A DNA stretch of 64,000 nucleotides from an uncultured Muribaculaceae bacterium (lineage in GTDB: Bacteria > Bacteroidota > Bacteroidia > Bacteroidales > Muribaculaceae): the NCBI GenBank assembly GCA_947175145.1, contig CAMWLY010000002.1, positions 1 through 64,000 on the forward strand, given 5' to 3'. Of the stretch, positions 3,772-19,890 are shown piece after piece (position 1 is the stretch's first letter; each line of letters starts with the position of its first letter). The translations under genes and the position numbers were made by a program. The notes beneath the pieces were generated by a model, which searched no databases, had not been told where the DNA came from, and was given only the letters and a program-made list of their open reading frames with translations.

Positions 3772-6700
3772 TCAGTTTTTCTTTTGAAGCCAGCGCACCG
3801 CATTGCGGAATATATTCTGCTTCTTGTCGCCGGTCACATTTTTCATCAATCCCTCGCGGTATCTTTCGGAGTGTCCCATCTTTCCGAGGATATGTCCGTC
3901 GGGGGAGATGATGCCCTCGATAGCCCATGTGGAACCATTGGGATTTTCGGGTGATTGCATGGTGGCATGGCCGGTTGTCGGGTCGGCATACTGGAATGCT
4001 ATCTGACCGTTGTCGAGGAGAATCTTGCGCATCTTCTCATCGGCGGTAAATTTACCTTCGCCATGGCTCATCGCCACAGCGTGAAGCTGACCGGGTGTGA
4101 AGCTGTAGAGCCAGGGGCTGGTCACTGTGCCTACACGTGTCACAGCTATCTGCGATATGTGGCGGTTTATGTCATTGCGGAACAGAGTCGGTGAATCAGG
4201 GGTAAGTTCGCCGATTTTGCCGAATGGCAGCAGACCCGATTTTACCAGGGCCTGGAAGCCGTTGCAGATACCGAGAATCAGACCGCCGCGTGCCTGCAGG
4301 CGTTCGATAGCGGCGCGCACCTCTGTATTAAGAAGCACAGTGGCAATAAATTTGCCCGAGCCGTCAGGTTCATCGGCTGCCGAAAAACCGCCGCTTATCG
4401 CCAATATGTGGCAGGCATCGATAGAAGCCGCCATCTCAGTGCATGAACCGGCTATGTCTTCAGCTGTAAGGTTGCGGAAAACACCAATGCTGGTTTCTGC
4501 ACCCTCGGCTTCAAAAGCCGCTTTCATATCATAATCGCAGTTGGTGCCCGGGAATACCGGCAGGTAGACCATCGGTCTTTCCACTGCCTCACCGGCGTAG
4601 GGCTCGGGGAGACGGTCACACTCAGCATCGGGTGTCTCTCCCGATGTCGCTGCACTATCAGGATATACACTGTTGAAGCGCTCCCTGACTTTGGCATCGA
4701 GAGTGTCGATATCAAATTTATGGTGGTCGACACTGATAGTCGGTTCTTCAGTTGTAGAGCCGATAAAGTGCGCACCCGGAATATCTACCGCCTCGCGTGC
4801 TTCGATGAGTATCGAGCCATACATGGCATCAAAGATTTTGACCTCATCGTAGGAAACATCGGCTCCTATGCGGTTACCGAGCGACATCTTGACCAGAGCT
4901 TCGGCCAGACCTCCGCGGCCTATTGCAAAGGCTGACACCACATTGCCGCTCTTGATTTCGCGGTTCAGAGCCGGGTATGATGCAGCCAGCGCCGAAGTGT
5001 TGGGCATCAGTGATGCCAATGGCTTGTGTTCTATGAGATAGAGTCCGTGGCCGGCAGCTTTAAACTCGGGGCTGATTACATCGCGGGAGTCGAGAGCTGT
5101 AGCACCGAATGCTATCAGTGTAGGCGGTACATTCAACTCACCGAATGTGCCGCTCATCGAGTCCTTGCCACCAATCGAGGGAAGCTCAAGTTCCTGCTGC
5201 ATGCGGAGTGCTCCGAGAAGTGCTGCAAGCGGTTTGCCCCAGGCCTTTTCAGAACTCATGCGTTCGAAATATTCCTGATAGCTGAAGCGCATCTTGCGGT
5301 AATCAGCGCCTGCAGCCACAGCTTTTGCCACTGCGGATATTACAGAATATGCGGCGCCGTGGTATGGGCTCCACTCGGTGATATAGGGGTCAAAACCCCA
5401 TGACATAAGGCTGGCAGTGTTGGTGTGGTGTGAACCCACCGGGAATTTCTGCACTGATACCTGTGTCTCGGTGCCACCGGTTTTTCCGCCGAAGGGCATC
5501 AGCACTGTCGATGCTCCGATGGTCGAGTCAAACATCTCTATCAGTCCGCGCTGTGAGGTGACATTGGGGTCAAGCAGGTTGGAAATAAACTTCTCCTGAA
5601 AATCCTTACCCTCAAGTTCGCGTGCAAACGGGTCTTTGTTTTCCACTGCCTGCACTTTGGCTTTTGCGAAATGAGGAGCACCCGCAGAATCGATAAATTC
5701 ACGCTTCAGGTCGGCTACAGCCTCACCGTTGCGCCAAAGACGCATGCGACCGGTGTCGGTGACATCTGCCACATGGCGCACTTCAATATTCTCTTCATGG
5801 CAATAGTCCATGAATTCCTGCATATCCTTGGCTTCCACCACCACCGACATTCTTTCCTGACTTTCGGAGATTGCAAGTTCGGTGGCGTTGAGACCATCAT
5901 ATTTTGTGGTGACCCGGTCCAGATATATATCAAGTCCGTCGGTAAGTTCGCCGATTGCCACACTGACTCCGCCTGCGCCGAAGTCATTGGATTTTTTCAC
6001 GAGTTTCGTTACCTCGGGGCGTCGGAACAATCTTGAGAGTTTGCGCTCCTCGGGGGCGTTACCCTTCTGCACTTCCGAACCGCACATCTCAAGGCTGGAT
6101 TCGGTGTGTTCCTTGGAAGAACCGGTGGCGCCTCCGATACCGTCGCGTCCTGTGCGACCGCCGAACATCAGCACCACATCTCCGGGAGCGGGGCGCTCGC
6201 GGCGCACATCAGCTGCGCGGACAGCACCTGCCACTGCTCCGACCTCAAGCCTCTTGGCTACATAGCCGGGGTGGTATATCTCGCGCACATGTGTGGTAGC
6301 AAGACCAATCTGGTTGCCATATGATGAATATCCGGCTGCTGCACCGCGGCTTATCAGACGCTGGGGAAGTTTGCCGGGGATCGTATCCTCTACATTCTGC
6401 CAGATATCACCCGCTCCGGTCACACGCATGGCCTGATATACATAGCTGCGGCCACTCAGCGGGTCGCGAATCGCTCCGCCGAGACAAGTCGATGCTCCAC
6501 CGAAAGGCTCTATCTCCGTGGGGTGATTGTGTGTCTCATTCTTGAATTGCAGAAGCCATCTTTCGGTCTCACCGTCCACATCTACATCTACATAGATGCT
6601 GCAGGCATTGTTCTCCTCGCTCTGCTCCAGGTCATCAAGCTTACCGTTGGTGCGAAGCCAGCGGGCGCCGATTGTGGCGAGATCCATCAGACAGAGAGGT

Positions 6701-7485
6701 TTCTCCTTGCGACCCAGGTCTGAGCGCATCTTGTGCCAGAGTTCAAGGCTCTCGCGGATTTCGGGAGCTACAAAGGAATCTTCTATTTCAATATCAGTGA
6801 GTTGAGATGTGAAAGTGGTGTGGCGGCAATGGTCGCTCCAATATGTGTCGAGTATCCGAAGTTCGGTTTCGTTGGGGTCGCGACCCTCGGCTGTGAAATA
6901 TGCCACTACCTCCATCAGATCATCGCCATTCATGGCAAGTCCTTTCTCCTTGACGTATGCCTTAGCCTCTTCAGGGGTGATGTTTCTGAAACCGTCGAGC
7001 ACCTCTACCGGATTGGCATGAGCGCGTTCCGGCATGGCGAGGATATTCATATTCTTGATCCTTGACTCCACGGAATTCACCAGATAGCGGGAAATCTTCT
7101 CCATCTGTTCCGGGGTCACGGAGTCGTCGAAAATATAAAGTCTTGCGGAAAGAACCTCAACATCGGCATTCGGGTCTGCAAGACGCACGCATTCGCGTGC
7201 TGCCGATGCTCGCTGGTCGAACTGGCCGGGGAGTGCTTCAATCGCCAGATAAGGTTTGTCAGTGTAGTCCGGAGTCTCGGTAACTGTGTCGGTGGCAGCT
7301 TCGCCAAACACACCATATCTTGTTTTCTCAAGCAGGCTGTCGCTGAAACCGAAGAGGTCATAAACGCAGACCACTCTCAAATCTTTGATATTGAGACCCA
7401 GTGTGGTATTGAGTTCATTTCGCAGGCTGTCAGCCTCGACACGGAATTCGGGGCGTTTCTCTACGAAAATGCGATGAGTTGTCAT
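3772..7485 (-). CDS. purL: Phosphoribosylformylglycinamidine synthase PurL, large single-chain form
   Basis: This is the large FGAM synthase that combines synthetase and glutaminase on one chain, so no separate PurS/PurQ is needed. I place the start at the ATG at 7485 (MTTHRIFVEKRP), giving 1237 residues. The ORF-track version adds 52 residues that overlap purE and do not look like family sequence. The synthetase core has LRILDTYWSDHCRHTTF and KNETHNHPTEIEPFGGA. The C-terminal class I glutaminase domain starts near residue 950 (PVFPGTNCDYD) and has its nucleophile Cys in LGICNGFQALVKSG near residue 1071. It starts 31 bases after purE and precedes purM. Confidence 0.97.
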   Translation of the reverse strand: MTTHRIFVEKRPEFRVEADSLRNELNTTLGLNIKDLRVVCVYDLFGFSDSLLEKTRYGVFGEAATDTVTETPDYTDKPYLAIEALPGQFDQRASAARECVRLADPNADVEVLSARLYIFDDSVTPEQMEKISRYLVNSVESRIKNMNILAMPERAHANPVEVLDGFRNITPEEAKAYVKEKGLAMNGDDLMEVVAYFTAEGRDPNETELRILDTYWSDHCRHTTFTSQLTDIEIEDSFVAPEIRESLELWHKMRSDLGRKEKPLCLMDLATIGARWLRTNGKLDDLEQSEENNACSIYVDVDVDGETERWLLQFKNETHNHPTEIEPFGGASTCLGGAIRDPLSGRSYVYQAMRVTGAGDIWQNVEDTIPGKLPQRLISRGAAAGYSSYGNQIGLATTHVREIYHPGYVAKRLEVGAVAGAVRAADVRRERPAPGDVVLMFGGRTGRDGIGGATGSSKEHTESSLEMCGSEVQKGNAPEERKLSRLFRRPEVTKLVKKSNDFGAGGVSVAIGELTDGLDIYLDRVTTKYDGLNATELAISESQERMSVVVEAKDMQEFMDYCHEENIEVRHVADVTDTGRMRLWRNGEAVADLKREFIDSAGAPHFAKAKVQAVENKDPFARELEGKDFQEKFISNLLDPNVTSQRGLIEMFDSTIGASTVLMPFGGKTGGTETQVSVQKFPVGSHHTNTASLMSWGFDPYITEWSPYHGAAYSVISAVAKAVAAGADYRKMRFSYQEYFERMSSEKAWGKPLAALLGALRMQQELELPSIGGKDSMSGTFGELNVPPTLIAFGATALDSRDVISPEFKAAGHGLYLIEHKPLASLMPNTSALAASYPALNREIKSGNVVSAFAIGRGGLAEALVKMSLGNRIGADVSYDEVKIFDAMYGSILIEAREAVDIPGAHFIGSTTEEPTISVDHHKFDIDTLDAKVRERFNSVYPDSAATSGETPDAECDRLPEPYAGEAVERPMVYLPVFPGTNCDYDMKAAFEAEGAETSIGVFRNLTAEDIAGSCTEMAASIDACHILAISGGFSAADEPDGSGKFIATVLLNTEVRAAIERLQARGGLILGICNGFQALVKSGLLPFGKIGELTPDSPTLFRNDINRHISQIAVTRVGTVTSPWLYSFTPGQLHAVAMSHGEGKFTADEKMRKILLDNGQIAFQYADPTTGHATMQSPENPNGSTWAIEGIISPDGHILGKMGHSERYREGLMKNVTGDKKQNIFRNAVRWLQKKN

Positions 7486-7516
7486 TGTGTGTGTAAATAT
7501 GGTTTTGAAGATGGAT

Positions 7517-7990
7517 TCAGATTTCGGTTTCGAGGATTTTGTCTGCTTGATCTTTTCTGAAAGCAGCGACTTTCTCTCTAAGTTCGGGATTAGAGATAGA
7601 AAGCATCTCCACGGCAAGCAGGGCCGCATTTTTAGCGCCATCGATAGCGACTGTAGCTACCGGGATTCCTGATGGCATCTGGACCATAGCGAGCAGAGAG
7701 TCGAGTCCACCGAGGGCTTTGGTCATGATAGGCACTGCGATTACGGGAAGTGTGGTAAAAGCTGCCACGACACCGGCCAGATGAGCTGCGCCACCGGCAG
7801 CGGCTATAAAGACAGCTACTCCGCGTTGCTGACTCTCCTTAACCCAGGCTTCGAGAGCGGCGGGAGTGCGGTGTGCACTGAGTACTCGCTTCTCATAGCC
7901 TACGCCCATGCGGTCGAGCATTTCAAAGGAGCCTTTCATCACGGGCAGGTCACTGACCGAGCCCATCACGATTCCGACTTTGAATTCCAT
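7517..7990 (-). CDS. purE: N5-carboxyaminoimidazole ribonucleotide mutase PurE (class I)
   Basis: Class I PurE rearranges N5-CAIR to CAIR. The 157-residue product has the phosphate/substrate motif [12 protein letters not shown] (residues 9-20), the catalytic His in SAHRTP (His40) and [15 protein letters not shown]. No PurK is seen in the window, so N5-CAIR would have to come from a purK elsewhere. purE is the first gene of the purine operon and is preceded by a roughly 160-nt leader with its own promoter, a small ORF and a strong hairpin, described separately. Confidence 0.96.
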
Positions 7991-8035
7991 TTTACTGTAT
8001 AACTGATAAATTGTTGAATTAATCGTATATAGAAG

Positions 8036-8069
8036 CGGGCGCCCGCCCCATGATGGGGGCGAGCGCCCG
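8036..8069 (-). promoter_or_regulatory. Strong GC-rich hairpin in the purE leader
   Basis: On the minus strand CGGGCGCTCGCCCC and GGGGCGGGCGCCCG form a 14-bp stem with a single U-G wobble and the loop CATCAT. No U tract follows (next bases are CTTCTATATACG), so it is not a textbook intrinsic terminator. It lies downstream of the purE promoter, so every purine-operon transcript crosses it. pyrB read-through would also meet it. A role as attenuator or translation-linked structure is inference. Confidence 0.6.
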
Positions 8070-8078
8070 TTCGTGCGT

Positions 8079-8150
8079 TCACATGCCGTGGCGGCGGCCG
8101 TTGTTGGCCGAAATACTCCTGCTATGCATGGATACCGCGTTCATTTCCAT
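8079..8150 (-). CDS. Putative 23-codon leader ORF upstream of purE
   Basis: The minus strand from 8150 reads ATG GAA ATG AAC and so on, encoding MEMNAVSMHSRSISANNGRRHGM followed by TGA. Inner ATG starts lie at 8144 and 8129. The first ATG is only a few bases from the predicted transcription start, so the effective start may be internal; from 8129 the peptide is 16 residues. The stop codon sits about 10 bases before the GC hairpin. The coding segment holds short alternative stems such as CGGCC/GGCCG. This arrangement resembles a leader-peptide attenuator, but whether it is translated is unknown. It is too short for the ORF track. Confidence 0.4.
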   Translation of the reverse strand: MEMNAVSMHSRSISANNGRRHGM

Positions 8151-8153
8151 GTG

Positions 8154-8185
8154 CAAAATTAGCAAATTTTCCGGACTTTCCCAAA
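8154..8185 (-). promoter_or_regulatory. Promoter of the purine operon
   Basis: On the minus strand TTTG (8182-8185) is followed after exactly 20 bases by TAATTTTG (8154-8161). This is a full match to the Bacteroidota -33/-7 consensus TTTG/TAnnTTTG. The start of transcription is expected at about 8147-8150, leaving a leader of roughly 155-160 nt before purE. It lies just beyond the pyrB stop codon and separates the pyr and pur operons. Confidence 0.75.
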
Positions 8186-8214
8186 TTCAGGTACTTTCCG
8201 GTCTTTATTTTATA

Positions 8215-9306
8215 CTATTTTTCAGCGCGGTGTTCGCAATATGCACACCTCATGCCTTTGCCATCGGCTGTGGCCTTGAAGAGTGGCTTCACTGCGTGAG
8301 GCTCTGTATTAGAAATACACTTGCGGTTCGAGCAGCGCATTCCGGTGTCGGCTACTGTGTCGCGGGCCGGGTCAAGGTCGCGCTCCGGACGGTCCGCCCA
8401 CTCGAGAAGTTTAAGAATCAAGGCCATGCGCACAAATTTGCCATTTTCCACCTGACGGAAGTAGGCTGCCCGCGGATCCGCATCTACATCAACCGATATT
8501 TCGTTGCCACGCGGCAGCGGGTGAAGCACCCGCATTGTCGGCTTGGCGCCCTTCAGCTTCTCGGCATCAAGCACAAAACAATCTTTCACGCGGTCATAGT
8601 CCTCCTCGCTCAGGAAGCGCTCTTTCTGCACGCGAGTCATATACAATACATCAAGGTCGCCGATAGCCTCTTCGAGCGATGAAACTTCGCGGTAGTCTAT
8701 GCCATAACGGTCACATACCTCCTCTTTCATATAACTCGGCAGTCGGAGTTCTTCGGGAGCAATCAGTACCACCTTGATGCCCTCGAACCGGGAGAGCGCT
8801 TTTATCAGCGAATGCACCGTGCGACCGAATTTCAGGTCTCCGCAGAATCCTATGGTAAGATTGTCGAAGCGCCCTATCTCCCTGCGGATTGTGAGCAGGT
8901 CGGTTAGAGTCTGTGTGGGGTGCGCGTGTGAACCGTCGCCGGCATTGATTACCGGTGTGCGCGAGTTGAGAGCCGACACAAGCGGAGCTCCCTCTACATG
9001 ATGGCGCATTGCGATAATATCGGCAAAGCAATTGATAACCTTGGTTGTATCGGCTACTGTCTCACCTTTGCTCACTGATGATGACATGGCATCGCTGAAT
9101 CCGATTACATTGCCCCCGAGTTCCATCATGGCTGATGTAAAGCTGAGGCGAGTGCGTGTAGATGGCTCGTAGAACAGGGTGGCAAGTTTCTTGCCTTTGC
9201 AAATGTCTGAATATTTTGACCTGTTGTCGATTATGTCAAGGGCTAAATTGATTATCTCCTCTAATTCGGCTGTGGAGAGATCGGTGGGTTCTATGAGGTG
9301 TCGCAT
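8215..9306 (-). CDS. pyrB: Aspartate carbamoyltransferase PyrB with fused PyrI-type zinc domain
   Basis: This enzyme condenses carbamoyl phosphate and aspartate, the first committed pyrimidine step. Residues 1 to about 308 are the catalytic chain, with the carbamoyl-phosphate loop EPSTRTR (residues 47-53), [11 protein letters not shown] and [13 protein letters not shown]. The roughly 55 extra C-terminal residues contain Cys325, Cys330, Cys354 and Cys357. The spacing C-x4-C-x23-C-x2-C is exactly that of the zinc domain of the PyrI regulatory chain. The nucleotide-binding N-terminal domain of PyrI is absent. In E. coli the zinc domain is the part that contacts the catalytic chain, so the fusion may support assembly without CTP/ATP allostery; that is inference. 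It is the last gene of the pyr operon, 16 bases after pyrE. Confidence 0.95.
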
Positions 9307-9322
9307 GATTATTATGTGATAA

Positions 9323-9952
9323 TTATTTCATCCAGGATTCGTCAGAGGGATTTGCCATAAAAGCTCTCAGTCGCGCTTGATCCTCAGGCTTGATATATCC
9401 CTCTTCTGCTGCTACCTCAACCAGAGTGTTGAAATTTGAGAGAGAGTGGTTTTCAACCCCGGCCGCTTCAAGACGTTCGAGACCTTTCTTCATGCCGTAT
9501 GTGAATATCGAAATCACACCGAGCACTTCCGCACCGGCTTCGCGCAGTGCATTTACTACTTCGATGCAGCTGCCTGCCGTGGAAATCAGGTCTTCGATTA
9601 CCACAACCTTCTGACCCGGTTCAAGTTTTCCTTCAATTCTGTTGTTGCGGCCATGATCTTTAGCAGAACCGCGCACATAACCCATTGGCATGCCGAGCAG
9701 ATGTGCAGCTATCGCAGCATGAGCTATTCCGGCTGTGCTGGTGCCCATCAGCACCTCAGCTTCAGGATAATATTCTTTGACTTTATCAGCAATAGCACGC
9801 TCCACCAGGTCTCGCACTCCGGGAGCTGTGAGAATCAGTCGGTTGTCACAGTATATCGGGCTTTTGATTCCGCTTGCCCAGGTGAAAGGTTTTTCGGGGC
9901 TGAGAAATACAGCCTTGATGCTTAGCAGCGCCTTTGCTATCTCTTTTTCCAT
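9323..9952 (-). CDS. pyrE: Orotate phosphoribosyltransferase PyrE
   Basis: PyrE transfers orotate onto PRPP to form OMP. The 209-residue product has the normal length. The PRPP-binding signature [13 protein letters not shown] occupies residues 116-128, and the flexible catalytic loop is visible as [16 protein letters not shown] (residues 93-108). It follows pyrF after 68 bases, in which I see no clear promoter, and precedes pyrB by 16 bases. Confidence 0.97.
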
Positions 9953-10020
9953 AATGAGTTATAATAGCGACACTATTACCGTGTCAGATTTTCATAATAT
10001 TTAAATTTCAAATTACCCGA

Positions 10021-10725
10021 TCAGTCGGCGAAATCAGCCATGCAGCGTCTGTAGGCGGCCACAGGGTCGGGAGCCGCGGTAATAGGACGCCCCACTACTA
10101 TGAAGTCAGAGCCAATCTCGCGAGCACGCGCGGGTGTGGTGATGCGGCTCTGGTCATCTTTGGCGGCATCGGGATAGCGGATTCCGGGGGTCACGGTCAG
10201 GAATTCTTCACCGCAAGCTTGCTTGACCAGTCCGGCTTCAAGTGGCGAACATACCACTCCGTCGAGTCCGGCTTCTTTGGCATTCATGGCATAGCGGGCT
10301 ATAACATCATTGATTTCTCCCGGAATCATCAGCTGCTCATTGAGTGCCTGCTGCGATGTGGAGGTGAGTTGGGTCACAGCGATTATCAGAGGTCTTTCTC
10401 CCTCGGGGCGACCTTCGCGAAGCCCCTCTGCCGCAGCGCGCATCATCTCAATGGTGCCCGAAGCATGCACATTGACCATATCCACATCAAGGCGCGAGAG
10501 AACCTTCATGGCTTTGCGCACTGTGTTGGGAATATCGTGCAGCTTGAGGTCAAGAAAAATCTTGTGGCCACGACGACGCAACTCGCGTACAATTTCAGGA
10601 CCTCCGGCATAAAATAATTCCATGCCGATTTTCAGGAATGGCTTCTCATCGGTAAACTTGTCGAGAAACTCCAGAGTGGCTTCAGGAGTGGCGAAGTCAC
10701 ATGCTATAATTACATCTCTTTTCAT
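10021..10725 (-). CDS. pyrF: Orotidine 5'-phosphate decarboxylase PyrF
   Basis: PyrF decarboxylates OMP to UMP, the last de novo step. The 234-residue TIM-barrel protein carries the catalytic DLKLHDIPNT motif (residues 59-68, with the Asp-Lys-His-Asp tetrad) and a phosphate-binding segment DFIVVGRPITAA near the C terminus. Its start overlaps the stop of pyrD by 4 bases (ATGA), which suggests translational coupling within the pyr operon. Confidence 0.97.
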   Translation of the reverse strand: MKRDVIIACDFATPEATLEFLDKFTDEKPFLKIGMELFYAGGPEIVRELRRRGHKIFLDLKLHDIPNTVRKAMKVLSRLDVDMVNVHASGTIEMMRAAAEGLREGRPEGERPLIIAVTQLTSTSQQALNEQLMIPGEINDVIARYAMNAKEAGLDGVVCSPLEAGLVKQACGEEFLTVTPGIRYPDAAKDDQSRITTPARAREIGSDFIVVGRPITAAPDPVAAYRRCMADFAD

Positions 10726-11654
10726 AAATCCTTTAATTCTTTGAGGCTCTTTATATTGTAGCGTGCCATCGCATCGGGCAGGCTTTCAATTATTCTTTTA
10801 CATGCGAGCGGGTCGATAAGGTTTGCGGTACCGACCTCTACGGCAGTTGCGCCGGCCATCATCATCTCAAGCACATCTTCAGCGGTAGACACACCTCCGC
10901 AGCCCACTACCGGAATAGAGCATGCATGACTTACCTGCCAGACCATGCGCAGCGCCACCGGGAATACAGCCTGACCGGAGAATCCACCCATGATATTGGC
11001 TACCACAGGTTTGCGTGTCTTTAAGTCTATTCTCATGCCGAGCATTGTGTTGATAAGACATATTCCGTCGGCGCCGGCATCTTCAGCACTTTTAGCTATC
11101 GATACGATATCGGTCACATTGGGGGTGAGTTTTACAATCACCGGCAGAGTGGTGACTTTCTTCACAGCGCCTACCACTTCTGCTACCGAGTCGCATGATG
11201 TGCCGAAACTCATGCCGCCGCCATGCACATTAGGGCAACTCACATTGAGTTCGATCCACTCCACCTGACTCTCACCGGTGATTCGCTTGCAGCATTCGGT
11301 ATATTCTTCTATGGCAAATCCACTGATATTAGCCATAATGGGACCCGAGAAGTCGCGTCGCATCAGTGGAAGCTCTTCAGATATTACCTTGTCGATACCG
11401 GGGTTCTGAAGTCCCACGGAATTAATCATTCCGGAGGTGCATTCCGCAACACGAGGCAGAGGATTGCCGAAGCGCGGGTGCAAGGTTGTGCCCTTGAAAG
11501 AAATGGAGCCGAGTATGTTGATGTCGTACCATTCGCTCATGGTGTAGCCGTAACCGAAGCAACCGCTTGCCGGTATCACAGGATTCTTAAGCTTCACTCC
11601 GCAGAGCTCTACTCCAAGGTCGCGTGCTATTCCATTTTTATCATTCATTTCCAT
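10722..11654 (-). CDS. pyrD: Dihydroorotate dehydrogenase PyrD, class 1B catalytic subunit
   Basis: This is the FMN-containing catalytic subunit that oxidises dihydroorotate to orotate. The class 1 type is shown by the active-site Cys in LNVSCPNVHGGG and by the absence of an N-terminal membrane anchor. Substrate and FMN segments include NSVGLQNPGID, INTMLGMRIDL and VVGCGGVSTAEDVLEMM. The partner subunit PyrK is immediately upstream with a 10-base overlap, so this is the NAD-linked 1B complex. The 310-residue length is typical. Its stop overlaps the pyrF start. Confidence 0.97.
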   Translation of the reverse strand: MEMNDKNGIARDLGVELCGVKLKNPVIPASGCFGYGYTMSEWYDINILGSISFKGTTLHPRFGNPLPRVAECTSGMINSVGLQNPGIDKVISEELPLMRRDFSGPIMANISGFAIEEYTECCKRITGESQVEWIELNVSCPNVHGGGMSFGTSCDSVAEVVGAVKKVTTLPVIVKLTPNVTDIVSIAKSAEDAGADGICLINTMLGMRIDLKTRKPVVANIMGGFSGQAVFPVALRMVWQVSHACSIPVVGCGGVSTAEDVLEMMMAGATAVEVGTANLIDPLACKRIIESLPDAMARYNIKSLKELKDL

Positions 11655-12394
11655 ATCAAGTCCTCCTTATCGAATACCGGTCCATCTTTGCAAATTCGCT
11701 TTGCACCGCTTTTTGTTTCAAGTGAGCAGCACATGCACACCCCGAAACCGCAGGCCATGCGTGCCTCAAGGCTTAGCTGACCCGGTATATCCAGTTGTGC
11801 GCAGAGTGCCTTGAGCATAGGGAGCGGTCCGCATGCATAGAAGAAATCAGGATTGAGCCCCTCATTTGCTATCACATCGGTCACATAGCCCTTAGTGCCG
11901 TAGGAGCCATCTAATGTGGCTACATAAAACGGTATGTCGAGATTCTCGAACTGCTCAATCATAATCATGCGCTCTTCTGAATTAAAACCGAGCACCACAG
12001 TAGGCAGCACACCGGCTTCAATCAGATTTTTGGCAAGTGAGTATATCGGGGGGCAGCCTACACCACCTCCGAGCAGAAGAGGTCTATCTCCACATTTGCT
12101 CATATCGAATCCGCGACCAAGGGCAGGGAGGATATCGAGCTTGTCGCCGGCTTTGAGTTCGGCAAGTGCCTCGGTGCCATGACCGATCACATCGTAGACC
12201 AGTGTCATGGTATCTCCATCTATGTCGCAGACCGAGATGGGGCGACGCAATGTGAACCCGGGTACGGCGATATTGACAAATTGACCCGGCGATGTGAACT
12301 CATCGGTCGGACCTTCGAGTATCATCATCTTGGTATTGTTGCCAATCCAGGAATTGTCGATTATTGTATATCGAGTGTCGCTATTTCTATGCAT
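11645..12394 (-). CDS. pyrK: Dihydroorotate dehydrogenase electron-transfer subunit PyrK
   Basis: PyrK carries electrons from PyrD's FMN through a 2Fe-2S cluster and FAD to NAD+. The 249-residue product has the FAD-binding barrel motif TLRRPISVCDID and the nucleotide-binding loop LLLGGGVGCPPIYSLAK. The C-terminal cluster ligands have the spacing C-x4-C-x2-C-x11-C (Cys215, Cys220, Cys223, Cys235). It lies 6 bases after pyrC and overlaps pyrD by 10 bases, which fits a coordinately made complex. Confidence 0.96.
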   Translation of the reverse strand: MHRNSDTRYTIIDNSWIGNNTKMMILEGPTDEFTSPGQFVNIAVPGFTLRRPISVCDIDGDTMTLVYDVIGHGTEALAELKAGDKLDILPALGRGFDMSKCGDRPLLLGGGVGCPPIYSLAKNLIEAGVLPTVVLGFNSEERMIMIEQFENLDIPFYVATLDGSYGTKGYVTDVIANEGLNPDFFYACGPLPMLKALCAQLDIPGQLSLEARMACGFGVCMCCSLETKSGAKRICKDGPVFDKEDLIWK

Positions 12395-12400
12395 ATATCT

Positions 12401-13672
12401 TTATTGCAAAGGATAAACTTGTTTGCCGCTGGCAAAAGTCATGATTATTCTACCGTAGAGCTCAGTGCCTTCAAAAGGTGTAGCTTTACCTTTGGATAGA
12501 AATTCCTTGGGGTCTACAATCTGCACTGTCTCGGGGTCAAAGAGTGTTACATCTGCCCGGTCACCGGGTTGCAATCCTCCGCTGATGCCGAAAATCTTGC
12601 GCGGGTTGTCGGCCATCAGCTCCACCATGCGCTGCATCGATATGATACCCGGTTTTACAAGATATGTATATATAGCGGAAGCGGATACTTCGAGTCCGGT
12701 GACACCCATGGCACTTTTTTCCAGTCCGCGGCTTTTCTCTTCGGCGGAGTGGGGTGCATGGTCGGAGGCTATGCAGTCAATTGTGCCATCTTTGATTCCC
12801 TGAATCAGAGCCGCCTTATCCTCCTCGCTTCTGAGTGGGGGATTCATCTTGAATCTGCCTTCTTCCTGCAGGTCTTTGTCGCTGAAGGCTATATAGTGAG
12901 CTCCTGTTTCACAGGTCACCGGTAGCCCTTCGGCTTTAGCCCGACGCACAAGTTCAACTGATTCTTTGGTCGAGATGTGGCAGATATGGAGTTTGCAGCC
13001 GGTTTCGGCAGCAAGTCTGATGTCGCGTTCCACTTCAGCCCATTCGCTCTCGGAGCAAATTCCGCGGTGTCCGTGGGTTGCGGCATACTCACCGTCATGA
13101 ATGTATCCCTTGTGCAGCAGACTCTCAACTTCACAGTGAGCGGCCAATACTTTGCCGGTAGGGGCGATTCCCCGCATAGCCTGAAGCATCGTGTCGCTAT
13201 CCTGAACTCCGGTGCCATCGTCGGAAAATCCCGCTACCATAGGTGCCAGAGCAGTGTAATCCACCAACTCATGACCCATTCGCAACTTTGTTATGGATGC
13301 GTAGGGGAGCACCTCGATGATAGCATCTCTGCTTATTATTTCCAGTTGCTTCTCCAGATTTTCCTTACTGTCGGGCACAGGATTCAGATTGGGCATAGTG
13401 CATACGGTGGTAAAACCTCCATGTGCCGCCGCGCGGGTGCCATCGGCTATAGTCTCTTTGTAGGAATAACCCGGTTCGCGAAGATGAACATGCACATCGA
13501 CTAGACCGGGCAGCAGATATGCTCCGTTGGCGTCGATAATCTCCGCTGCTTCTTGGGCACCCGACGGCAATTCTCCGATAGCCGAAATTTTGCCATCTTC
13601 CATCAGCAAATTGCATTTCTTAAGACCCGATTTGCCGCAAAGCCGTGCGTTTTTTATCAGAATTTTATTCAT
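12401..13672 (-). CDS. pyrC: Dihydroorotase PyrC, class I
   Basis: Dihydroorotase cyclises carbamoyl aspartate to dihydroorotate in a zinc-dependent amidohydrolase barrel. The class I type is shown by the 423-residue length and the metal-binding motif VDVHVHLREPGYSYKET (residues 58-74). Later metal-site segments are the His regions in AAHCEVE and CHIST and the catalytic DHAPHS. The start ATG and the carB stop share one base (TGATG), so the two are translationally coupled. Confidence 0.96.
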   Translation of the reverse strand: MNKILIKNARLCGKSGLKKCNLLMEDGKISAIGELPSGAQEAAEIIDANGAYLLPGLVDVHVHLREPGYSYKETIADGTRAAAHGGFTTVCTMPNLNPVPDSKENLEKQLEIISRDAIIEVLPYASITKLRMGHELVDYTALAPMVAGFSDDGTGVQDSDTMLQAMRGIAPTGKVLAAHCEVESLLHKGYIHDGEYAATHGHRGICSESEWAEVERDIRLAAETGCKLHICHISTKESVELVRRAKAEGLPVTCETGAHYIAFSDKDLQEEGRFKMNPPLRSEEDKAALIQGIKDGTIDCIASDHAPHSAEEKSRGLEKSAMGVTGLEVSASAIYTYLVKPGIISMQRMVELMADNPRKIFGISGGLQPGDRADVTLFDPETVQIVDPKEFLSKGKATPFEGTELYGRIIMTFASGKQVYPLQ

Positions 13673-16600
13673 CAGAATTCCTGCCAGGACTTGATTTCGA
13701 GTTCATCGGGACTCATGGCGCAAAATGCCTTGATAAATGCCGACGCCAATCGGGCGTTGGTTATCAGCGGTATATTGCGGTCAATCGCGGTGCGACGGAT
13801 TCGGTATCCGTTGGTCACCTCTTTATCCGAATGGTTACGCGGCACATTGACCACCAGATCTATCTCATGATTATTGAGCATTTCCACTGCCTGAGGCTGA
13901 CCCTCCTCATCAGGCCAGTACACGCGTGTGTTCTCAATACCATTTTCTGTAAGATGGCGGCTGGTGCCCTCTGTGGCATATATGTCATAGCCGTGTTTGC
14001 GCAGCAGTTTGGCCGCGGCAAGCATATCACCTTTCTGTTTGCCATTGCCGGTAGAGAGTAGCACACTCTTCTTTGGCACTCTCTGACCTACGGAGAGCAT
14101 CGATGTAAGCAGAGCCGAGCGGGCATCCTCACCGAGACAACCAACTTCACCGGTCGATACCATATCCACACCTAACTTCGGGTCAGCTTTCTGCAGTCGG
14201 TTAAATGAGAACTGACTTGCCTTGACACCGACATAGTCGAGGTCAAACACCGATTTGTCGGGTTTGCTTACCGGCAAGCCGAGCATGATGCGGGTGGCTA
14301 ATTCTATGAAATTGATTTTAAGAACTTTGCTTACAAATGGGAAGCTGCGTGATGCGCGCAAATTACATTCGATAACCTTGATATCGTTGTCGCGAGCCAG
14401 GAACTGGATATTGAAGGGACCCGAGATGCGAAGTTCCTTGGCAATCTGCTTGGAAATCTTCTTGATGCGGCGGGCTGTCTCGACATAGAGTTTCTGCGGG
14501 GGGAACTGAATGGTGGCATCGCCGGAATGCACCCCGGCAAATTCCACATGTTCCGAAATAGCGTAGGCTATGATTTCACCATCGCGTGCCACCGCGTCCA
14601 TCTCAACTTCCTTGGCATGTTCGAGGAACTGGCTGACCACAACCGGGTGGCGTTTTGACACATTGGCGGCGAGAGTCAGGAATTTCTCAAGTTGCTCGCG
14701 ATCATAGCAGACATTCATCGCCGCTCCCGATAACACATACGACGGGCGAACCAGAACCGGGAATCCGACCTTTTCCACAAATGCGTTGATGTCGCTCATA
14801 GAAGTCAGAGCCGACCATTCCGGTTGGTCAACTCCTATGCGGCCGAGCATGGCCGAGAATTTCTCGCGGTCCTCGGCATTGTCGATGCTCTGGGCGGAGG
14901 TGCCGAGCAAACGCACTCCCTGCTGGTCAAGCTTGAGCGCAAGATTATTGGGAATCTGACCACCGGTGGATACCACAACTCCGTGAGGAGTTTCAAGATC
15001 CAGAATGTCAAGCACACGCTCAAATGTCAGTTCATCGAAGTATAACCTGTCGCAAATATCATAATCGGTAGACACGGTTTCGGGATTGTAATTTATCATC
15101 ACCGAGCGGTATCCCTCTTTGCGAATTGTTTCCAATGCCTGCACACCGCACCAGTCGAACTCAACCGAGCTGCCTATGCGATATGCTCCGGATCCGAGCA
15201 CCACGACCGAACGGAAATCATGTTCGTAGTCTATATCATTATGATTACCACCGTAAGTGAGATACAGGTAGTTTGTGGCGGCCGGGAATTCTCCGGCGAG
15301 AGTGTCTATCTGTTTTACGCAGGGGAGAATGCCGAGTGCTTTGCGGCGGTCACGGACTTTGAGCACACCCTTCTCGATATCCATCTCTTTCTCCATGCCG
15401 ACTGCGCGGGCAATCTGGAAATCAGAGAATCCGAGTGCCTTGGCTCTTCTGAACAATCTTGCCGGCAATGCTTCCAGACCGGCAGTGGCCCGAAGTTCGC
15501 GGTCCACATCATGAATATTGCGCAACTTCTCCAGGAACCAGCGGTCTATCTTGGTAAGCTCATGAATCTGGTCCACGGAATATCCTTTGTCAAACGCTTT
15601 CTCAATCACAAAGATGCGTTTGTCGGTTGGTGCGTGCAGCGCGGAGTCGATGTCGGGTATCTCAAGTTCCTTATTCTCCACAAAGCCGTGCATGCCCTGG
15701 CCTATCATGCGGAGACCCTTCTGAATAGCTTCTTCGAATGTGCGCCCTATGGCCATAACTTCGCCCACAGATTTCATCGAGGATTCAAGTTCGCGGTTCA
15801 CCCCGCGGAATTTACCCAAGTCCCAGCGCGGTATTTTGCAGACACAGTAGTCAAGGGCGGGTTCGAAGAATGCGCTGGTGATTTTGGTCACAGAGTTACG
15901 CAAGTCAAACAAACCGTAGCCAAGTCCTAATTTCGCGGCAACAAATGCCAGCGGATAACCTGTGGCTTTCGATGCCAATGCCGATGAGCGGCTCAATCGG
16001 GCATTTACCTCAATCACTCGGTAATCCTCTGAATCAGGGCAGAGTGCAAACTGCACGTTGCACTCGCCGACTATGCCGATATGTCTGGCGATACGTATGG
16101 ATAATTCGCGGAGTTTGTGATATTCCGAATTGCTCAGTGTCTGCGATGGTGCCACCACGATACTTTCGCCGGTATGAATGCCGAGTGGGTCGAAGTTCTC
16201 CATGTTGCAGACAGTGATGCAGTTGTTGAACTTGTCGCGAACCACTTCATATTCCACCTCTTTCCAGCCCTTGAGGCTCTTTTCCACAAGTACCTGGGGA
16301 GAGAAAGAGAATGCCTTGTCTGCCAGACGCTCCAGTTGGTCGGGTGTGTCGCAGAATCCCGAACCGAGACCTCCGAGTGCATAAGCGGCGCGGAGTATCA
16401 CGGGATAACCTAATTTTTCGGCTGCTTCAAGTGCCTGAGACTTGTTGTCACAAGCCACTGAATCGATGGTCTTTACATCGATTTCATTAAGCTTGTCGAC
16501 AAATATCTCGCGGTCTTCTGTGTCGATAATTGATTGCACCGGGGTGCCGAGCACCTGCACACCATATTTCTCAAGCACTCCTGAATTATATAATTCCACG

Positions 16601-16896
16601 CCGCAGTTGAGCGCTGTCTGACCGCCAAAGGCGAGCATGATGCCTTGCGGACGTTCGCGCGCAATTACCTTCTCCACAAAGGGTGGTGTGACCGGGAGAA
16701 AATATATGTGGTCGGCAACTCCCTCAGAAGTCTGCACTGTAGCGATATTGGGGTTTATCAGCACTGTCTCAATACCCTCCTCGCGCAGGGCTTTAAGTGC
16801 CTGACTGCCCGAATAATCGAATTCTCCGGCTTCTCCGATTTTGAGTGCGCCCGAGCCGAGCACGAGCACTTTCTTTATGTTCTGGTCTTTCTCCAT
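13672..16896 (-). CDS. carB: Carbamoyl-phosphate synthase large subunit CarB
   Basis: CarB makes carbamoyl phosphate from bicarbonate, ammonia channelled from CarA, and two ATP. I use the ATG at 16896 (MEKDQNIKKVLVLGSGALKIGEAGEFDYSGSQ), giving 1074 residues; the ORF-track start adds 16 residues overlapping carA. Two homologous ATP-grasp halves are visible, each starting with a GSGAxxIGxxxEFDxxGxQ motif. The C-terminal methylglyoxal-synthase-like allosteric domain (from about residue 935, KKSVLLSTGNGKQKGDML) would bind effectors such as UMP and ornithine. It starts 25 bases after carA and overlaps pyrC by one base. Confidence 0.97.
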   Translation of the reverse strand: MEKDQNIKKVLVLGSGALKIGEAGEFDYSGSQALKALREEGIETVLINPNIATVQTSEGVADHIYFLPVTPPFVEKVIARERPQGIMLAFGGQTALNCGVELYNSGVLEKYGVQVLGTPVQSIIDTEDREIFVDKLNEIDVKTIDSVACDNKSQALEAAEKLGYPVILRAAYALGGLGSGFCDTPDQLERLADKAFSFSPQVLVEKSLKGWKEVEYEVVRDKFNNCITVCNMENFDPLGIHTGESIVVAPSQTLSNSEYHKLRELSIRIARHIGIVGECNVQFALCPDSEDYRVIEVNARLSRSSALASKATGYPLAFVAAKLGLGYGLFDLRNSVTKITSAFFEPALDYCVCKIPRWDLGKFRGVNRELESSMKSVGEVMAIGRTFEEAIQKGLRMIGQGMHGFVENKELEIPDIDSALHAPTDKRIFVIEKAFDKGYSVDQIHELTKIDRWFLEKLRNIHDVDRELRATAGLEALPARLFRRAKALGFSDFQIARAVGMEKEMDIEKGVLKVRDRRKALGILPCVKQIDTLAGEFPAATNYLYLTYGGNHNDIDYEHDFRSVVVLGSGAYRIGSSVEFDWCGVQALETIRKEGYRSVMINYNPETVSTDYDICDRLYFDELTFERVLDILDLETPHGVVVSTGGQIPNNLALKLDQQGVRLLGTSAQSIDNAEDREKFSAMLGRIGVDQPEWSALTSMSDINAFVEKVGFPVLVRPSYVLSGAAMNVCYDREQLEKFLTLAANVSKRHPVVVSQFLEHAKEVEMDAVARDGEIIAYAISEHVEFAGVHSGDATIQFPPQKLYVETARRIKKISKQIAKELRISGPFNIQFLARDNDIKVIECNLRASRSFPFVSKVLKINFIELATRIMLGLPVSKPDKSVFDLDYVGVKASQFSFNRLQKADPKLGVDMVSTGEVGCLGEDARSALLTSMLSVGQRVPKKSVLLSTGNGKQKGDMLAAAKLLRKHGYDIYATEGTSRHLTENGIENTRVYWPDEEGQPQAVEMLNNHEIDLVVNVPRNHSDKEVTNGYRIRRTAIDRNIPLITNARLASAFIKAFCAMSPDELEIKSWQEF

Positions 16897-16921
16897 GTTA
16901 TTTCTCTGTCTGCGCTTTGGG

Positions 16922-18007
16922 TTAGAGGAGTTTGATAAAATCATCGAAAAGGAACTCGGTATCTACCGGACCACCTGATGCCTCAGGGTGGAATTGTGAG
17001 GAGAACCAGGGTTTCTCACGGTGGCGTATTCCCTCGTTGGAACCATCGTTCATATTGGTGAAATATGGTTCCCAGCCATCGCGAAGGGTTGAGGGTTCTA
17101 CTGCGAAACCATGATTCTGACTGGTGATAAAGCAGCGCTCGGTGCCCTCCATGCGAACCGGCTGATTGTGTGAGCGGTGACCGTATTTGAGTTTATAGAT
17201 TGTAGCACCTGCGGCTTTGGCCAGCAGTTGGTTACCCATGCAGATACCCATAAGCGGACGCTTCTCTTCAGGGTTGTCTATGAATTTCCTGATATTTTCC
17301 ACAGCCTCAGCACAAGCTTCAGGGTTGCCCGGACCATTGGAAATAAAGAGGCCGTCGAATTCCAGGTTATTGAAATCATAGTTCCAGGGAACTCTTATTA
17401 CTTCAACTCCGCGATCCACAAGGCATCTGATGATATTGTTTTTGGCACCGCAATCTATCATCGCCACCTTCTTGCGACCATCACCGACACCATATCTCCG
17501 CACTTCAGGAACCGAAACAAGGTCTACATAATTCACCTTGTTATAATCCGTTTCTTCGGGTTGATTGGTTGCACCATCGATATAGATTCTGCCCATCATA
17601 ACACCATGTTCGCGGAGCAGCTGGGTGAGTCTTCTTGTATCTATGCCGGTAATGCCGGGCACTTTCTCGCGGCGAAGCCACTCCGACAAACTCTCCTGAG
17701 CATTCCAGTGGCTGAATTGCTCGGAGTAGTCACCGACGATCAGACCGGTGGGGTAGATGCGGTCAGACTCCATAAAACGCTCTATGCCGTCGGCAGAGCT
17801 TTCAGAAGTGCTGGGCACACCGTAGTTGCCGACCAGTGGATATGTCAGAACCATAATCTGGCCCGCGTATGAGGGATCTGTCAGCGCTTCAGGATAGCCG
17901 GTCATCGCGGTGTTGAACACCACTTCGCCGTATGCATTTCCTTCGTAGCCAAATGATTCCCCTTCGAATCGGGTGCCATCGTCGAGTATAAGTGTGGCTT
18001 TCTTCAT
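16922..18007 (-). CDS. carA: Carbamoyl-phosphate synthase small (glutaminase) subunit CarA
   Basis: CarA hydrolyses glutamine and passes ammonia to CarB. The 361-residue product has the CarA-specific N-terminal domain (ATLILDDGTRFEGESFGYEG) and a class I glutaminase domain. The nucleophile Cys is in MGICMGNQLLAKA near residue 252, and the His-Glu pair is in SSQFHPEASGGP near the C terminus. Its start overlaps the stop of the upstream amidotransferase by 4 bases, and carB follows after 25 bases. Confidence 0.97.
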   Translation of the reverse strand: MKKATLILDDGTRFEGESFGYEGNAYGEVVFNTAMTGYPEALTDPSYAGQIMVLTYPLVGNYGVPSTSESSADGIERFMESDRIYPTGLIVGDYSEQFSHWNAQESLSEWLRREKVPGITGIDTRRLTQLLREHGVMMGRIYIDGATNQPEETDYNKVNYVDLVSVPEVRRYGVGDGRKKVAMIDCGAKNNIIRCLVDRGVEVIRVPWNYDFNNLEFDGLFISNGPGNPEACAEAVENIRKFIDNPEEKRPLMGICMGNQLLAKAAGATIYKLKYGHRSHNQPVRMEGTERCFITSQNHGFAVEPSTLRDGWEPYFTNMNDGSNEGIRHREKPWFSSQFHPEASGGPVDTEFLFDDFIKLL

Positions 18008-19890
18008 TGCTTGTAATATATTTCTTCTATATAATTTATATATGCCTGGTTAATTCGCATGACTCCGCCCGGTGTGGGATATTTCCCCGAGAAGTACCAA
18101 TCGCCCGGGTGGTGAGGACATGCCTGATGCAGTCCCTCGATGCTTTGGTATACTATCTTTACCTCTGCCCTGACATCGTCGGGCTTGAGCATCTCTACAA
18201 TCTTGGCGGAAATTTCTTCGTCGGTGAAGAGGTCATAGAGGCGGGTCACATAATTGGTCATCTCCTCCTTGGGTAGTTTCGCCTGAGCTTTGCAGAGCTC
18301 GTAGATTTCATTAATCACGTTCTCCTGACCTCTGTCGCGGGCAAGTGCTACCGCCGCGCGAAATGCTATGAATTCATCCATGCGCGACATGTCGATGCCA
18401 TAGTAATCCGGGTAGCGCACCTGCGGACTTGAACTAACGATTACTATCCTTTTGGGGTGAAGTCTGTCGAGAATCCTGATGATGCTCTCGCGAAGCGTGG
18501 TGCCTCTGACTATCGAGTCATCGATTATCACCAAGTTATCCACTCCGGGGCGTAGACTGCCGTAGGTTATGTCATATACATGACCGGCCAGATTATTGCG
18601 TGAGGAGCCTTCCGAGATAAATGTGCGAAGTTTGATATCCTTGATGGCGACCTTCTCTGTGCGGATGCGACGAGATAAAATCTTATCTATTCGTTCGGGT
18701 GGAATATATCCTCCCCAACGGGCAAGTTCCTCTGCTTTCTGCTTGTTGAGGTATTCATTGAAGCCCTGGACCATGCCATAATACGCTACTTCGGCTGTGT
18801 TGGGGATATATGCGAAGACAGTATCGTCGACTTCCCCCTCGATAGCCTTGAGTATAGGTTCCACGAGAGAGTGCCCGAGAGCCTTGCGCTCACGATAAAT
18901 GTCGCGGTCGGAGCCGCGGCTGAAATAAACACGCTCGAATGAGCAGGGGGCGTATGTGCGCGGTGTCAGAATCTGCTCTATCCGCAGTTTGCCGTCGCGG
19001 CTCAATATCAGTGCCTGCCCGGGTGCGAGTTCGTGCACCTGACTTGCCTCGACATTGAAGGCGGTCTGAATCACCGGTCTCTCTGAAGCCATGGCGAAAA
19101 CTTCATCGTCCATATACCAGAAGCCGGGGCGAATACCCCAGGGGTCGCGCATACACATCATCTCTCCGGAGCCGGTGACACCGCATATCACATAACCGCC
19201 GTCCCAGACAGGTGAGGAGTTCTTGAGCACATTGGCCAAGTCGATATTCCGCTCGATATATTCGGTGATGTCAGTATCGCGCAGACCGAGTTCTATGGCG
19301 CGGTTGAAGTGCCGTTCGGATTCTCGGTCGAGCCGATGACCGAGTTGTTCGAGAAGCAGATAAGTGTCGGAAATCATGCGGGGGTGCTGACCTTTGACCG
19401 CGATGTGATCGAAAATCTCCTCAACATTGGTCATGTTGAAGTTGGCACAGATGCAAAGGTTTTTTGCCCGCCAGTTATTGCGTCTCAGAAAGGGGTGAAT
19501 ATAAGAAAGACCGCTTTTCCCCGTGGTGGAATACCTGAGGTGACCCATATAAAGTTCACCGGCGTAGGGGAGGAAGCGGCTTGCATAAGAGGCGTCTTGA
19601 AGTTCTGAGGTCGGTATGTCTCGGAAATTGGAATAGACGGCACTGAATATTTCCTGAATTGCATTGGAACCCTCGGCTCGTTCGCGAAACATAAATTCCC
19701 GGCCCGGGTCTGCCTCAAGTTTTACACAGGCGAGTCCGGCACCTTCCTGACCTCGGTTGTGTTGTTTCTCCATCATCAGATAGAGTTTATCGAGACCATA
19801 CATCCAAGAGCCATATTTTTGCCGGTAATATTCCAGCGGGCGCAGCAGCCTCACCATAGCGACGCCACATTCATGCTTTAATGGTTCCAT
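18004..19890 (-). CDS. PurF-like amidophosphoribosyltransferase at the head of the pyr operon
   Basis: The 628-residue product has an N-terminal Ntn-hydrolase glutaminase domain and a C-terminal phosphoribosyltransferase domain. The likely nucleophile is Cys8 (MEPLKHECGVAMV), exposed after removal of a short propeptide. The PRPP-binding motif is intact (NLVIIDDSIVRGTTLRESI). It is 120-150 residues longer than ordinary PurF. The gene is first in the pyrimidine operon and overlaps carA by 4 bases, rather than lying among the purine genes. Long PurF homologues beside carA are, to my knowledge, recurrent in Bacteroidales. It may supply phosphoribosylamine in step with pyrimidine flux, or have a distinct amide-transfer role; the sequence alone does not decide. 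Confidence 0.88.
   Translation of the reverse strand: MEPLKHECGVAMVRLLRPLEYYRQKYGSWMYGLDKLYLMMEKQHNRGQEGAGLACVKLEADPGREFMFRERAEGSNAIQEIFSAVYSNFRDIPTSELQDASYASRFLPYAGELYMGHLRYSTTGKSGLSYIHPFLRRNNWRAKNLCICANFNMTNVEEIFDHIAVKGQHPRMISDTYLLLEQLGHRLDRESERHFNRAIELGLRDTDITEYIERNIDLANVLKNSSPVWDGGYVICGVTGSGEMMCMRDPWGIRPGFWYMDDEVFAMASERPVIQTAFNVEASQVHELAPGQALILSRDGKLRIEQILTPRTYAPCSFERVYFSRGSDRDIYRERKALGHSLVEPILKAIEGEVDDTVFAYIPNTAEVAYYGMVQGFNEYLNKQKAEELARWGGYIPPERIDKILSRRIRTEKVAIKDIKLRTFISEGSSRNNLAGHVYDITYGSLRPGVDNLVIIDDSIVRGTTLRESIIRILDRLHPKRIVIVSSSPQVRYPDYYGIDMSRMDEFIAFRAAVALARDRGQENVINEIYELCKAQAKLPKEEMTNYVTRLYDLFTDEEISAKIVEMLKPDDVRAEVKIVYQSIEGLHQACPHHPGDWYFSGKYPTPGGVMRINQAYINYIEEIYYKQ

Follow-up and report, generated by a model that had tools for sequence, protein, structure and literature searches.

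Why does a promoter facing the purine genes purE and purL, in an uncultured Muribaculaceae bacterium, lead first into a very short open reading frame and a strong hairpin, and could these elements control the genes behind them? To our knowledge, purine control in Bacteroidales is poorly described. An earlier note on this DNA had proposed a leader-peptide attenuator. In the window, that is, the whole stretch of 64,000 nucleotides analysed here, the parts it named were all confirmed on the minus strand: a promoter, an upstream open reading frame (uORF) of 23 codons, a 14-bp GC hairpin and purE about 45 nt beyond, the gap between stop codon and hairpin being 9 nt. The features are as follows.

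8185-8182, minus strand: -33 promoter element TTTG, with 20-nt spacing to the -7 box (consensus in PMC7366714)
8161-8154, minus strand: -7 promoter element TAATTTTG, with a similar box in relatives
8150-8079, minus strand: uORF MEMNAVSMHSRSISANNGRRHGM, 23 codons plus stop, its stop placement shared with relatives
8081-8079, minus strand: uORF stop codon TGA, 9 nt 5′ of the predicted terminator stem
8069-8036, minus strand: predicted intrinsic terminator hairpin, 14 bp with a 6-nt loop, dG about -33 kcal/mol
8035-8026, minus strand: weak U tract CUUCUAUAUA directly 3′ of the hairpin
7990-7517, minus strand: purE, first gene past the candidate attenuator (TIGR01162, E 4.3e-59)
7641-3772 as listed, minus strand: purL (large, TIGR01857 type), second gene

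The leader lies between pyrB (8215-9306) and purE, with purL after purE, all on the minus strand. The listed purL ORF is counted from an in-frame ATG further upstream, which makes it overlap purE; the true purL start therefore lies further downstream. From 3772 to 19563 the minus strand carries a long one-direction run of pyrimidine and purine genes in the order purF-like (about 18343-19563), carB, pyrC, pyrK, pyrD, pyrF, pyrE, pyrB, leader, purE and purL, where all names except purE, pyrB and purL were given from reading the translations and from one family search. Near the C-terminus of the pyrB product (363 aa), residues 320-361 match the aspartate carbamoyltransferase regulatory subunit, and the gene resembles a pyrB to which part of PyrI has been fused.

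The promoter of the window is of the Bacteroidetes -33/-7 type, whose consensus is quoted in PMC7366714, and transcription is expected to start at about position 8150. Because the ATG at 8150 is only 3 nt past the -7 box, the uORF would be either near-leaderless or begun at one of two in-frame ATGs, 8144 or 8129; all three ATGs share the same stop. A start at 8129 would leave a 5′-UTR of about 21 nt, and the modal 5′-UTR in B. thetaiotaomicron is 23 nt (PMC7366714). The leader RNA is unusually stable (fold z = -4.4, with none of 200 shuffles equally stable) and 13 of the 14 hairpin base pairs are GC. The earlier note had seen no U tract after the hairpin, but a weak one is present in the window and a clear T run in most relatives; an intrinsic terminator is therefore the best reading of the hairpin. 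When the whole 64-kb window was scanned for a promoter and a uORF ending at a terminator, the purE leader was the only place found.

Is this arrangement shared by related genomes? The purE orthologues compared came from two sources, 111 genomes belonging to the same genus-level group and a set of named public genomes; the sample consisted of Muribaculaceae and related Bacteroidales, mostly MAGs. Under a permissive rule, a -7 box and a candidate uORF were present in 79 of 112 distinct upstream regions. In the purE tree, 33 sequences including that of the window form one clade (98/95), within which the window sequence falls in a 10-member subclade (98/96), and almost all members of the clade carry the leader. 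Outside the clade, the upstream regions checked, those of Paludibacteraceae and of most other sequences, yielded no such leader. The genus-level group contains two kinds of purE: that of the window (57-75% identity) is found in most members, and about 15 have another one, only 50-55% identical, which resembles the purE of the family's other genera. A TAAYTTTG-type box precedes the uORF in nearly all relatives, and a stable hairpin followed by a T-rich stretch is present in almost all leaders. In L036 and L053 the leader lies directly 3′ of a tRNA gene and a promoter of its own was not recognised, the uORF stop still lying 5 nt before the terminator. The leader sequences form groups W (that of the window), A, B, C, D and E, too diverged for good mutual alignment and therefore providing many semi-independent samples. 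In groups C and E (e.g. L174, L189, L086) the terminator sequence itself is conserved (about GACGCCATGAGNAATCATAGGCGTC), unlike in the other groups, and its loop may have a second role there.

What, then, has been kept among leaders so different? The uORFs of the relatives range from 3 to 76 codons and have very different sequences (in 41 leaders, lengths of 10 to 76 codons take 24 different values), and the only constant is where the stop codon lies with respect to the terminator. With the longest ORF, 36 of 42 representative leaders have a stop that ends between -13 and +2 nt from the first base of the stem, and 33 of 42 do when the uORF is begun at its first ATG, the chance expectations being 2.0 and 1.9; these representatives were chosen by eye as distinct lineages and are related by descent, which limits this main statistic. 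The null was built from dinucleotide-type shuffles of the ORF region, and 200,000 simulations of stop placement never put more than 10 leaders in that interval. For L035, L041, L059, L090 and L093 the stem found automatically was in the wrong place or too long, and the search start was set by hand in L036, which has no promoter of its own. Group E uORFs have only 3-14 codons, begin 4 nt past the -7 box and stop either -9 to 0 nt from the stem or within the hairpin at +10 to +21. The uORFs of L034, L039 and L191 also stop within the hairpin (+21/+22) and some group C uORFs run on through it; the exceptions thus fall on the side where the ribosome would open the hairpin. Judged by comparison of sequences, the purE clade has kept the geometry of the stop relative to the terminator, without a conserved peptide sequence, and the purE leader is a real, conserved regulatory feature.

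This geometry points to a mechanism. We infer that the uORF is translated and that its translation modulates termination, and consider the leader probably to be a translation-coupled transcription attenuator of purE-purL that acts sterically, in the manner of E. coli pyrBI. RNA polymerase would begin at about 8150, transcribe the short uORF and then reach the intrinsic terminator. If no ribosome were close behind, the hairpin would fold and transcription would end before purE (OFF state). If a ribosome stood at the uORF stop while the polymerase was at the terminator, the hairpin would be kept open, either because the leading edge of the ribosome covered the stem base or because the ribosome had already opened the 5′ arm, and read-through to purE-purL would follow (ON state). 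Since a ribosome at the stop would cover the foot of the stem, close translation would mean ON and a polymerase outrunning the ribosome would mean OFF; the decisive quantity would be the distance between ribosome and polymerase, with no need for an antiterminator hairpin or a particular peptide. In E. coli, termination fell from about 90% to less than 10% when a stop lying 28 bp ahead of a terminator was shifted to 5 bp, and complete hairpin folding needs about 10-15 nt free (PMC4824070). A steric block would require the stop to lie inside the stem or no more than about 10-15 nt before it, as is found here, the gap in the window being 9 nt. Comparison with relatives lends strong support to the idea of a leader ORF governing whether transcription passes the hairpin; of the two possible points of control, termination is rated likelier than translational access to purE.

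Could the peptide itself be the sensor instead? Under this reading, an isoleucine-serine pair and an Arg/Lys cluster would stall the ribosome together with a ligand, and the stall position would decide whether the terminator forms. We regard such nascent-peptide arrest as unlikely. The uORFs are free of in-frame stops, and the synonymous-site test suggested by the earlier note gave a mixed answer: some purifying selection is indicated for group A, where five close leaders gave pN/pS 0.33 and 1 of 300 column shuffles fell that low, and for group B in its N-terminal half (pN/pS 0.49, 4 of 300), but group C gave no signal (pN/pS 0.93). A loose theme, I-S and then a basic cluster, is found repeatedly, in the window and in groups A, C and D, and basic residues make up 24% of the leaders in frame against 17-20% out of frame. 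Against this, the theme lies at a variable distance from the stop, and L040 (MEISSMKISISM), MKK and MKGK lack it and still keep the geometry, which makes the peptide an unlikely sensor. Nor did the NNGRRHGM end, which looked conserved to the note and was suggested there as perhaps the working part, hold up, since it occurs in 1 of 99 family genomes, only this one.

Somewhat less likely still is a classical amino-acid attenuator, where a ribosome stalled at regulatory codons would switch between antiterminator and terminator. A leader ORF and a terminator are indeed present, Arg and Lys are enriched, and many of the Arg codons are rare ones, CGA accounting for 31 of 118 in leaders against 5 of 138 in purE. 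Nevertheless, complementarity to either stem arm showed no excess in 41 leaders (mean z +0.34 and 0.00), no conserved codon run exists, as uORFs such as MKGK and that of L040 illustrate, some uORFs are very short, and the stop lies 0-13 nt from the stem when more than 20 bp is the rule for amino-acid attenuators (PMC4824070).

Only a little below this we place the proposal that purE is preceded by chance by a gene for a small protein, complete with its own terminator, and would be fed by read-through. The coding signal in some leader groups would agree with it, and terminators near stops are generally found; yet in ordinary ORFs of the same DNA (at least 150 codons) the median stop-to-stem distance is 28 nt and 21% lie at 12 nt or less, far from the gaps seen here, and the lengths and unrelated sequences of the uORFs do not suit a protein gene. 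The arrangement is also almost restricted to purE: among 96 promoter-like sites in 441 kb of related loci, scanned blind, 11 were followed by a uORF that ends at a terminator, and all but one of these, 10 of 11, were at purE. Nor does purE have a promoter of its own, no -7 box lying between hairpin and purE in any of 68 leaders. purF was considered as a second site; among purF loci only L212 showed the arrangement, which was taken as chance because it was seen in no other locus.

A riboswitch or protein-binding RNA, with the 5′ part of the leader as aptamer and the uORF incidental, appears very unlikely. Group D (e.g. L080, L099, L182, L041) does carry a strongly conserved motif immediately past the promoter, GGATATnTGAYAACCGAA, and its GGATATnTGAYAACCG core is present in 9 of 111 genomes, once in each and at no locus but purE; a possible P1 pairing with a downstream segment, GGAUAU:AUAUCC in group D and GGAAAU:AUUUCC in group W, was spotted by eye. 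This restricted distribution, the window and most of the clade lacking the motif, ruled it out as a general aptamer. Furthermore, Rfam covariance models, Bacteroid-trp and ZTP included, gave no relevant match on the window or, under permissive filters, on ten related loci, in agreement with the view that no known riboswitch class is present, the 5′ 75 nt show no excess fold stability (mean z 0.06), and an aptamer would leave the stop placement unexplained.

Finally, it is hardly credible that the hairpin terminates the pyr operon upstream and that the promoter is a fortuitous match: pyrB does lie just upstream on the same strand in the window, but the gene upstream of the leader differs between lineages and in several points away, so that the hairpin belongs to purE, where promoter, uORF and hairpin recur together with no promoter past the hairpin.

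The steric attenuator remains the simplest reading, because antiterminator complementarity, excess 5′ structure and Rfam matches are all lacking. Which signal would it respond to? We favour purine supply (ATP/GTP), the most speculative part of the proposal and one to which, even granting the steric mechanism, we give somewhat less than an even chance. Low ATP/GTP would slow the polymerase on a purine-rich leader and the ribosome would catch up. The purine fraction is 0.55 in leaders and 0.51 in purE (p = 1e-4), reaches 0.70 in group E leaders, and the leaders use purine-rich Arg codons; purine richness and Arg codon use may also reflect weak or absent codon optimisation. Alternatively, the signal could be the translation rate itself, for example through Arg-tRNA supply or growth rate. 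Very short uORFs such as MKK and MKGK speak against the model, as they would give the ribosome little time to catch up without a pause of the polymerase, and the leaders revealed no pause site. The weakness of the U tract in the window and the missing coding signal in group C also count against it. We also know of no work that establishes tight transcription-translation coupling in Bacteroidota. Unless there is a pause, ribosomes seldom draw level with the polymerase in the first 100 bp (PMC4824070). The full proposal, a sequence-independent purine counterpart of pyrBI in which ATP/GTP shortage slows the polymerase and a ribosome on a minimal uORF (down to 3 codons, sometimes near-leaderless) opens purE-purL, is accordingly put forward as tentative and rather doubtful.

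If the steric mechanism is true, ribosomes follow the polymerase closely in Bacteroidota; if the ATP/GTP reading is also true, the leader would provide evidence from a natural system both for tight transcription-translation coupling and for attenuation as a means of purine control in this phylum. No published report of the purE leader was found in the open-access literature. A regulator defined by geometry and not by peptide or RNA sequence escapes searches with protein and RNA families, and others may therefore be missed.

How does the purE leader compare with known systems? The mgtCBR leader of Salmonella, with its uORF mgtM, likewise couples uORF translation to leader transcription and is linked to ATP, as proposed here, but it uses alternative leader structures, is ON at high ATP, and responds to lost mgtM translation with raised expression, the opposite sign (PMC6908480). 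The trp and his attenuators and the Bacteroid-trp leader of Bacteroidetes (RF01692) share with it a short leader ORF and a terminator before a biosynthetic gene, whereas the purE leader has no antiterminator, regulatory codon run or Rfam match, and its stop is too near the terminator. ZTP (pfl) and other purine-related riboswitches also control purine genes and overlap a terminator (PMC2864571), but the purE leader has no covariance-model match and its uORF abuts the terminator. Direct evidence that termination is suppressed when a stop lies a few nt ahead of the terminator comes from E. coli reporters (PMC4824070). Those constructs are engineered and the purE leader is natural.

The E. coli pyrBI attenuator senses UTP through transcription-translation coupling. 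As in the purE leader, no antiterminator hairpin is involved, the peptide sequence is not the sensor and a nucleotide-synthesis gene lies downstream. In both, a translated leader ORF, putative in the case of purE, reaches an intrinsic terminator, though the pyrBI terminator sits within its own leader ORF (PMC4824070), which runs through it, and the purE-leader uORF usually ends just at the stem. The purE leader differs further in its purine gene, its Bacteroidales promoter, its uORF of variable length and its unrelated sequence. The best explanation is that it works like pyrBI, a likeness of function that need not mean homology, with nucleotide sensing as a putative part, and it looks like an unrecorded purine-gene version of the pyrBI switch in a large group of gut Bacteroidales.
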